Assembly: GCA_019923655.1 (NCBI GenBank)
Contig: JAHXGL010000004.1
Span: forward strand, 1-38,310
Direction: 5' to 3'
DNA: 38,310 nt
Source: Candidatus Nealsoniibacteriota bacterium
GTDB lineage: Bacteria > Patescibacteriota > Minisyncoccia > Minisyncoccales > RBG-13-42-11
The notes beneath the pieces are model-generated. The model did no database searches. It was given only the letters and a program-made list of their open reading frames with translations, and was not told the DNA's origin. Numbering within the stretch: the stretch's first letter is position 1; every line of letters begins with the position of its first letter. This document shows, piece after piece, positions 36,339-38,310 of the stretch. Position numbers and translations under genes: made by a program.

Positions 36339-37441
36339 AAATAATAATAGCTGTTTTAATTTTCGTTCTGTCCGCTGTTCCTGTTTTTCAGCAATCTGAA
36401 ATTTTAGCCGCAAGGAAAATAGACATTAACACTGCTTCTTATGAAGAGCTGCAAGAAATAATCTGGGTTGGCCCGGCTATAGCCCGAAGAATAAGAGAGT
36501 CCAGGCCGTTTTATTCTTTAGACGACATTATTAAAGTGAGGGGTATAGGCAAAAAACGGCTTGAAGACATTAAAAAACAAGGATTGGCTTGGGTTAATCC
36601 GGAAACAAAACCTAGCCCAGAGCTTGAGCGCAAAATACAGCCAGAACAAGAGCAGAAGCCGGTACCAGAGCAAGAACTGCAACCCAGCCCTGAACCGCAA
36701 GCCATTGTTTATCCTTCTAATGTCTTAATAAATGAAATCCTGCCTTCGCCAGAAGGCCCGGACGCTGAAGAAGAATGGATTGAAATTTTTAACCAGAATA
36801 ATTTTGAGGTTAATCTTTTCGGCTGGCAAATAACAGACACTATTGGCAGAACTAAAATCTATGTTTTTCCTACTAAAACCTTGATTGAGCCAAAAAGATT
36901 TTTAGTTCTTAGCCGACCAATCAGTAAAATTACTCTAAACAATGACCAGGATGCCTTAAAGCTTTTACGTCCAGATGGAAAAATTGCTGATTCAGTGAAA
37001 TATGAAAAAGCGCCAAGAGGAAAATCATACAACCGGCCCCTATTAGACAATGACAATTTAACAGACGCAAATAGCCCTGAATGGTTTTGGAGTTCTGTTT
37101 TAACCCCTGGAATGGCAAATATCAGCCCTGTTGTCTTTTCAGCAGAAGAGGCAGTAAAACAAACAGAAGAACAAAAAGCAAAATTTACTGAAGAGCCCTT
37201 AAAAAGAGAGCCTGCCCTGAAATATGGATTAGGGGCTATTAAAGAACAGGTTCATTTTCCAGAGCAACGAAATAAAGTTTCCAAATCCGAATGGATTTGG
37301 AAGACTAAAGTTTCCAAATTCTTTGGGTTTTGGAATGCCCTTGAAAGGAAAAATATGCCTGTTTTCGTAATCGCCTTGGTTGTTGCTCTCTTCTCCGGGA
37401 CAATAATTTTAATCCTTAAAAGAAAAATTAAAACAAGTTAA
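36335..37441 (+). CDS. Secreted/anchored HhH (ComEA-like) + lamin-tail domain protein with C-terminal TM
   Basis: KIDINTASYEELQEIIWVGPAIARRIRESRPFYSLDDIIKVRGIGKKRLEDIK; LINEILPSPEGPDAEEEWIEIFNQNNFEVNLFGWQITD; C-terminal MPVFVIALVVALFSGTIILILKRKIK. Confidence 0.88.
   Translation: MKIIIAVLIFVLSAVPVFQQSEILAARKIDINTASYEELQEIIWVGPAIARRIRESRPFYSLDDIIKVRGIGKKRLEDIKKQGLAWVNPETKPSPELERKIQPEQEQKPVPEQELQPSPEPQAIVYPSNVLINEILPSPEGPDAEEEWIEIFNQNNFEVNLFGWQITDTIGRTKIYVFPTKTLIEPKRFLVLSRPISKITLNNDQDALKLLRPDGKIADSVKYEKAPRGKSYNRPLLDNDNLTDANSPEWFWSSVLTPGMANISPVVFSAEEAVKQTEEQKAKFTEEPLKREPALKYGLGAIKEQVHFPEQRNKVSKSEWIWKTKVSKFFGFWNALERKNMPVFVIALVVALFSGTIILILKRKIKTS
37276..37335. repeat. In-gene copy of the CCAAAT/ATTTGG palindromic repeat
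   Basis: gtttccaaatccgaatggatttggaagactaaagtttccaaattctttgggttttgga; same motifs as 33449..33582 and 25000..25105. Confidence 0.85.
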
Positions 37442-37498
37442 AAAAATAGAAAACAAGAGATCTCCTTGAAATTTTGCCATTTTTCTTTTTAATGTGTA

Positions 37499-37536
37499 TA
37501 AATCTATGAAAGAAAAAATTAAAAACAAAAAAATAG
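37499..37536. repeat. 38-bp perfect direct repeat, copy 1 (start region of NYN gene)
   Basis: TAAATCTATGAAAGAAAAAATTAAAAACAAAAAAATAG, identical to 38259..38296. Confidence 0.97.
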
Positions 37537-38105
37537 AAAATGAGAATGTAATTTATGTTTTTATTGATGCATCAAATGTTTGGAGCGCCGTAAAGTCGGT
37601 GAAGAAGTTTATTGAATACAAAAAGCTTAAAAATTATTTTAGAAATAATTTTAATGCTAGCAATGTTGAAATTTTTTATTATGACGCCTACCCAAAAGAA
37701 GGAACAAGAGAACATAACTTGGATGGAAAACATAAATTCTACACATATCTCAAGAAAGGCCTTGATTTTACCGTAAGGAAAAAAGAATTGAAAAGAATTT
37801 CTATTATTAGCGAAAATGGAGAATCTATTATGGAAAAAGGGAATATGGATGTGGAAATAACTATTGACGCCCTGCATAATATGAATAAATACGATACAGC
37901 TGTTTTATTTAGCGGTGATGCTGATTTTTTGGCATTGGTAAGTTATTTGAAAAATCGCAACAAAAAAATTTATATTTTTTCATCAAAAGATAATATTTCT
38001 CATGAATTAAAAACTGGCTGTGATGGTTATTTTGACCTAAAAAATATAAATGAATTTTGGGGTAAAGATTTAAAATATCGCATAAAAAAAACTACCCTCG
38101 ACTAA
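37506..38105 (+). CDS. NYN-domain (LabA/DUF88-type, PIN-like) putative nuclease
   Basis: VIYVFIDASNVWSAVKSVKKFIEYKKLKNYF, EIFYYDAYP, KGNMDVEITIDALHNMNKYDTAVLFSGDADFLALVSYLKNRNKKIYIFSSKDNISHELKTGCDGYFDL. Confidence 0.9.
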   Translation: MKEKIKNKKIENENVIYVFIDASNVWSAVKSVKKFIEYKKLKNYFRNNFNASNVEIFYYDAYPKEGTREHNLDGKHKFYTYLKKGLDFTVRKKELKRISIISENGESIMEKGNMDVEITIDALHNMNKYDTAVLFSGDADFLALVSYLKNRNKKIYIFSSKDNISHELKTGCDGYFDLKNINEFWGKDLKYRIKKTTLD

Positions 38106-38200
38106 GAGGGTAGCCCTGGGATGTATAACCCTAACGGTTCTATGGAAGAACCGAAAGACATTATCAGTGTAGCAAGCTAATACCCATTGTCAAGTGTTGA
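38092..38200 (+). other. Candidate structured RNA downstream of (and overlapping the stop of) the NYN gene
   Basis: Hairpin CTACCCTC-GACTAA-GAGGGTAG (38092..38113) with the stop codon in its loop; hairpin CGGTTCT-ATGGA-AGAACCG (38135..38153); compact, less AT-rich segment in an AT-rich context. Confidence 0.5.
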
Positions 38201-38258
38201 AAACTAAAAAATCGTAAAAATAGCAAAATTTAGTTTTTGGAAATAAAATATATGAAAA

Positions 38259-38296
38259 TAAATCTATGAAAGAAAAAATTAAAAACAAAAAAATAG
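38259..38296. repeat. 38-bp perfect direct repeat, copy 2 (start of a possible next cassette)
   Basis: Identical to 37499..37536; reads MKEKIKNKKIGTFPN into the window end. Confidence 0.97.
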
Positions 38297-38310
38297 GGAC
38301 TTTTCCGAAT

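Follow-up and report, generated by a model that had tools for sequence, protein, structure and literature searches.

The window analysed here is a stretch of 38,310 nucleotides that corresponds to contig C15 of a 463-kb genome (G000). Near its right end the plus strand carries a gene for a NYN-domain (PIN-like) nuclease at 37506-38105 (PF01936, E=1.7e-22). NYN is the sole Pfam domain found in the protein, and no ToxN, CptN or TenpN family was detected. Similarity to relatives begins at about residue 11-14, with a conserved core from about residue 14, and D21, N24, D115, D138 and D140 are invariant in an alignment of 57 sequences. The protein is assigned to the family by both its profile match and its conserved acidic active-site residues. 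An AlphaFold2 model (pLDDT 85.6) found its best PDB matches in 2QIP and the MARF1 NYN. Fold and acidic site are shared with VPA0982 (2QIP), MARF1 NYN and the Bacteroides CRISPR-associated NYN RNase; however, these are single proteins or CRISPR accessories, unlike the window NYN, and to our knowledge no sRNA partner has been described for any of them. For the Bacteroides enzyme, Mn-dependent and non-specific endonuclease activity on ssRNA has been proven (PMC11346440), and family membership suggests that the window NYN is a nuclease as well. A viral origin of the gene was rejected, as no relatives were found in viral_contigs or phage records, and plasmid relatives reach only about 33% identity.

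Opposite to the 3' end of this gene, on the minus strand, lies a predicted sRNA gene of about 76 nt with three hairpins (38084-38159). It is convergent with NYN and is equipped with a predicted sigma70-type promoter at 38166-38193 (-35 TTGACA at 38193-38188, 16-nt spacer, -10 TACACT at 38171-38166), which places the +1 approximately near 38159. The last hairpin (38092-38113) together with the U-tract at 38084-38091 forms an intrinsic terminator that overlaps the last NYN codons, so that the sRNA ends at the NYN stop codon. A structured segment had been noticed here in the preliminary description; the structure itself is real (z=-3.9), but the strand was missed, since the structure belongs to a minus-strand gene. 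A covariance model matches the sRNA at 38077-38169 on the minus strand with 91.2 bits. The homologs show the same order on that strand, i.e., promoter, two hairpins, an invariant stretch and, on the NYN side, the terminator hairpin and its U-tract, and the TTGACA-N16-18-TATACT promoter is conserved across them. The minus strand is settled because the stem cells read in this direction contain 213 G-U versus 2 A-C combinations; promoter, terminator and these counts together rule out a structured 3' UTR on the plus strand.

Covariation was evaluated on 86 RNAs aligned to the covariance model. In this alignment 98.6% of the cells are paired and 13 of the 21 pairs have changed on both sides, which exceeds 500/500 shuffles and all slid controls; the independent MAFFT alignment A2 gives 9/21. 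Invariant unpaired bases are present in the GGGUNNUACAUC region of the sRNA, across NYN proteins differing by up to 50%, and no variable or guide-like stretch was seen in the aligned RNAs. The window RNA has no Rfam match at E<=1. The best sub-threshold candidate, BTnc231, was discarded as it aligns loosely and scores 24.9 bits against a cut-off of 80.4, and a scan of the L171 and L091 RNAs gave nothing near the gathering score.

Close NYN homologs (49-86% identity) occur in many Patescibacteria groups, in Saccharibacteria and in one Bacteroidota isolate. They comprise 80 named loci, two of which duplicate a third locus, leaving 78 distinct ones, and the sRNA lies directly after the NYN stop codon in 78/78; no close NYN without it was found in this set. 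A tandem NYN paralog whose homologs lack a linked RNA, named in the preliminary description as the counter-case, is therefore not what is found. When about 470 genomes were searched with the RNA model, 12 strong matches were obtained, eight of them next to an intact NYN, three next to a truncated or decayed NYN and one next to a DUF3800 gene; matches below about 40 bits are mostly ordinary terminators. The DUF3800-linked copy of the NYN-type RNA (L171) follows its partner gene within a type I restriction locus. Two further loci, L086 and L134, have broken NYN genes and still an intact sRNA. This asymmetry fits an antitoxin outliving its toxin, but is only suggestive because the NYN-anchored and the RNA-anchored searches started from different partners.

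Several of these loci show peculiarities of their own. In L079 (5543-6654) two modules stand in tandem, a GIY-YIG ORF with a decayed NYN tail and intact sRNA being followed by an intact NYN with its sRNA. L133 (JAQUZI010000004.1, Candidatus Paceibacterota STD2_257) reads UGA as tryptophan: 19 in-frame UGA codons occur in an isoleucyl-tRNA synthetase-like ORF, many of them where Trp is typically found, and in the NYN gene two invariant Trp sites are encoded by UGA. The L133 gene was therefore dropped from the count of broken NYN genes. At L036/L067 (G065:C24) an intergenic repeat made up of a terminator and a promoter is present in three partial copies, which stand ahead of an unknown gene, of the NYN gene and of a radC-like gene.

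The module of the window is enclosed by a direct repeat. Reported before as 38 bp, it is 39 bp long and 100% identical (37498-37536 and 38258-38296, both on the plus strand, start-to-start distance 760 bp). The left copy contains the ATG and the first roughly ten codons of NYN, and the right copy opens an ORF, MKEKIKNKKIGTFPN, which runs off the contig; the sequences upstream of the two copies are unrelated. These features had all been recognised correctly. By contrast, the suggestion that leader, nuclease and RNA form a repeating array in this genome did not hold up, since G000 has one NYN match only, and no second NYN is opened within the 14 bp that remain between the second copy and the contig end at 38310. 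Tandem NYN-sRNA modules do occur once in a relative, the L079 locus mentioned above.

The 23-bp core of the repeat has a chance expectation of 0.00 in the window. In the whole genome it is found exactly four times, twice here and twice on contig C14, where the two copies are 726 bp apart and flank a RHH/HigB-RelE toxin-antitoxin pair. From 38258 onwards, 55 bp share 80% identity with the right-hand repeat of this C14 cassette, and the last 15 bases of the window are absent from every other contig of the genome. The position of the second copy, only 14 bp from the contig end, could point to an assembly artefact. However, the 14 bp that follow it are unlike the sequence behind the first copy and agree with the homologous context on C14, and the same geometry is present at other loci deep inside contigs, which makes an artefact very improbable indeed.

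Exact direct repeats with a length of 20 bp or above enclose 14 of 82 NYN-sRNA modules, several of these repeats (e.g., L111, L132 and L094) resembling dispersed repeats and not target duplications, compared to 4 of 931 within-locus control placements; for repeats of at least 30 bp the numbers are 11 modules and no control placement. At the other loci the repeats are 22-104 bp long and unrelated in sequence between loci. The one at L130 is local sequence and corresponds to the 3' end of the methyltransferase gene next to the module. Within G000, four other cassettes lie between exact direct repeats of 25-49 bp: RHH with HigB (C14:30110), PIN with a small partner (C17:31392), HigB-like with AbiEii and DUF6922 (C4:10075) and a D12 methylase with a possible endonuclease (C1:30427). 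On C3 a palindromic repeat stands on both sides of a stomatin-like gene, and the other repeat pairs of the genome fall within genes.

For the 39-bp repeat, a long target duplication is the best reading. Restriction-modification systems are known to insert with long and variable target duplications (PMC3031569; review PMC3874152). Like these, the modules described here stand between long direct repeats that vary and consist of local sequence, whereas in Patescibacteria the repeats surround a nuclease-sRNA module and type II toxin-antitoxin pairs. Nobusato 2000 and Furuta 2010 are the names reportedly connected with restriction-modification insertion of this kind. A competing explanation is that the repeats are recombination sites of an integron-like or recombinase-mediated cassette system. 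Two unrelated cassettes of this genome, those on C14 and C15, have one 25-mer in common as their flanking repeat, and the similarity of their right-hand copies extends over the 55 bp given above. Integron cassettes would share an attC-like core and come with an integrase, and here the repeats vary by locus save for this 25-mer. The unrelated repeats of the other loci and the derivation of the L130 repeat from a neighbouring gene render recombination sites rather unlikely. Long target duplication thus stays the preferred reading: the module would move between genomes and would here have been inserted at the start of a host ORF, whose duplicated start would have become the new start codon of NYN. 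The earlier idea of an inserted NYN/RNA unit that duplicates and uses the start of another ORF is supported in this form. Close relatives of the window NYN come from different named lineages. One copy in a Bacteroidota isolate (L108, Niastella vici DJ57) is located in a 405-kb contig and groups with a Nomurabacteria copy, suggesting transfer of the module between phyla.

Further repeated sequences were observed. A 21-mer core was found at gene starts in 15 of 99 relatives and was discarded as a sign of a dispersed element because it mostly occurs singly, next to genes that are unrelated. At G006:C4 52580, 53700 and 54305 and in these 15/99 relatives, the gene-start sequence ATCTATGAAAGAAAAAATTAA is met again at the starts of unrelated genes; the copies are exact except for two mismatches at 52580 and often stand directly after TATAAT-like boxes, and the reversed pattern had zero occurrences in the same survey. 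It is likely that the recurrence of the 21-mer partly reflects convergence of AT-rich, near-leaderless gene starts. Two REP-like palindromic repeats of the TTTCCAAATCCGAATGGATTTGGAA type are present within the CDS of the gene upstream of NYN (37273-37335), and similar sequence flanks the stomatin-like gene on C3. At the other end of the window a 191-bp perfect direct repeat (22-212 and 844-1034, 822 bp apart) falls in a single minus-strand ORF with helix-hairpin-helix-like repeats.

The modules are frequently found next to restriction-modification genes. Among the immediate neighbours (n=143) N6_Mtase and Eco57I were counted eight times each, HSDR_N_2 seven times and N6_N4_Mtase and ResIII four times each. 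None of these families ranks in the top 25 by frequency in a set of 143 distant control genes; the comparison concerns the 25 commonest families listed per set, and rarer ones may exist among the controls. In the window itself, 38208-38246 on the plus strand reads KIVKIAKFSFWK* and is probably what remains of a restriction-methyltransferase gene at its 3' end. It resembles the C-termini ...FIKFAKEQKFSFI* and ...EWAKKEKLSFWK* of the HSDR_N/N6_Mtase genes which directly precede NYN at loci L074 and L130, and the similarity score tops 500/500 mononucleotide shuffles, albeit narrowly (32 versus 31). This lends modest support to the view that the module once resided behind such a gene and that the segment is a scar from that time.

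Taken from these sequence features, NYN and its convergent sRNA probably form a mobile toxin/RNA-antitoxin module in which the sRNA binds the nuclease in a type III-like manner. The NYN endoribonuclease would be the toxin and the structured sRNA, driven by its own strong predicted promoter, the antitoxin. Most likely the folded sRNA would be bound by the NYN protein and inhibit it; the conserved fold and the invariant unpaired bases favour a protein partner. The sRNA would be made in excess and be labile, and loss of the module or a transcription shut-off, e.g., by a phage, would therefore free the nuclease. Toxicity, inhibition and binding by the sRNA, the trigger and the insertion mechanism are all conjectural at this stage. 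The preliminary description had left open a mobile or an RNA-processing module. Mobility with a conserved RNA is retained, while for RNA processing the evidence speaks rather for an RNA-antitoxin module.

The main rival is a type I-like control, in view of the complementarity between the sRNA and the NYN mRNA at its 3' end: the sRNA would pair with the 3' UTR and silence the message, and the protein would never be bound. In the window the sRNA overlaps the last NYN codons and no separate plus-strand terminator is evident; across the loci it overlaps few NYN codons or none and is complementary to the 3' end and any read-through 3' UTR. The partner switch to DUF3800 would suit a cis-antisense unit as well. 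There is also a precedent in yonT/SR6, a type I pair in which the antitoxin SR6 and its toxin gene overlap at the 3' end of the latter (PMC5848175). The yonT toxin has 58 aa, however, compared to about 200 aa for the nuclease here, and a type I antitoxin needs no conserved protein-facing fold. As a cis-antisense RNA is complementary whatever its sequence, it requires neither covarying stems nor invariant unpaired GGGUNNUACAUC bases, and here the RNA also remains intact where NYN is broken. Silencing by pairing is therefore regarded as unlikely.

The convergent layout is not confined to the close NYN homologs. It was scored by one fixed promoter-plus-terminator test, and more distant accessory NYN genes were gathered with the L045 protein as query. 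These show the layout in 18 of 21 cases, a result that rests partly on consensus scans; their RNAs differ, but place and orientation are unchanged. Housekeeping NYN genes show it in 0/6 cases and other genes in 10/624, and at least four of these ten are DUF3800, PemK or NYN genes. DUF3800 genes were positive in 10/30 cases, and so were PemK genes in 11/30, all 11 belonging to the divergent half and none to the canonical half, where the halves follow score ranking and were divided after the data had been seen. An adjacent upstream protein antitoxin accompanies 12 of the 15 canonical PemK genes, which lack the layout, and at most 2/15 of those with it. Hence, for PemK, the family on which this comparison was made, the sRNA is seen where no protein antitoxin is present. 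Convergent sRNAs accompany the divergent PemK genes of L290-L305 (except L298), which have no obvious protein antitoxin, and many of these sRNAs carry a ...ACAAAUGGCUUCGGCC...-type motif. DUF3800 genes with convergent sRNAs are found at L126:6995-7630, L137:3622-4248 and L249-L275, the sRNAs belonging to several families, e.g., UGGGCUUCCGGAUGGUUGCUCG. None of the RNAs scanned near the other toxins, including those of L126 and L137, matched a Rfam family at the gathering score.

The PemK pattern also bears on the possibility that the sRNA is part of a ribonucleoprotein, being processed by NYN or activating or positioning it against foreign RNA, and is not an antitoxin. Such a role would agree with the strict linkage of sRNA and NYN and with the frequent siting beside restriction-modification genes, and PADLOC returned NYN together with a weak match to the candidate defence family HEC-09. 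However, the aligned RNAs have no variable or guide-like stretch, and PemK shows the sRNA layout precisely where its protein antitoxin is missing, which makes a ribonucleoprotein quite improbable. An antitoxin role is thus preferred, and it can be extended to a broader proposal, for which we see an even balance of chances: Patescibacteria may possess a class of toxin-antitoxin systems in which unrelated RNases (NYN, divergent PemK and DUF3800) are each paired with a convergent sRNA that replaces the protein antitoxin and terminates at the toxin stop codon. Each toxin clade would have its own co-evolved RNA family, and the systems would spread by insertion with long target duplication and by residence with restriction-modification genes.

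In type III systems a structured non-coding RNA binds and neutralises a toxic enzyme, which in ToxIN, CptIN and TenpIN is an endoribonuclease (PMC5086642), and for AvcID release upon transcription shut-off was shown (PMC10511110). The module resembles ToxIN, CptIN, TenpIN and AvcID in the pairing of an enzyme with a structured RNA, which is predicted from sequence here. It departs from type III in two defining features. The type III RNA is made of tandem repeats, is pseudoknotted and lies upstream in the toxin operon, whereas here a single unit of about 76 nt with its own promoter lies downstream and is convergent; and the toxin is NYN/PIN-like instead of having the ToxN fold of the ToxN/CptN/TenpN families. 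Rfam already contains RNA motifs near DUF3800 and pemK genes. Weinberg and co-workers are said to have described these DUF3800-I to -XI and pemK RNA families. They likewise link a structured RNA to a nuclease-like gene, but their covariance models do not match the window RNA. No description of a NYN/sRNA module was found in the open-licence literature.

If the proposed reading is true, RNA antitoxins of a general but unrecognised design are in use throughout a division of bacteria that is large and mostly uncultured, and several new sRNA families exist outside Rfam. Genes annotated just as 'NYN domain' or 'DUF3800' would gain a testable role, and the association of DUF3800 genes with RNA motifs, known yet unexplained, would gain a concrete hypothesis. 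The split within PemK, with either a protein antitoxin or a convergent sRNA and rarely both, makes the antitoxin role directly testable. The flanking repeats are evidence that insertion with long target duplication is how toxin-antitoxin and restriction genes move in these genomes.
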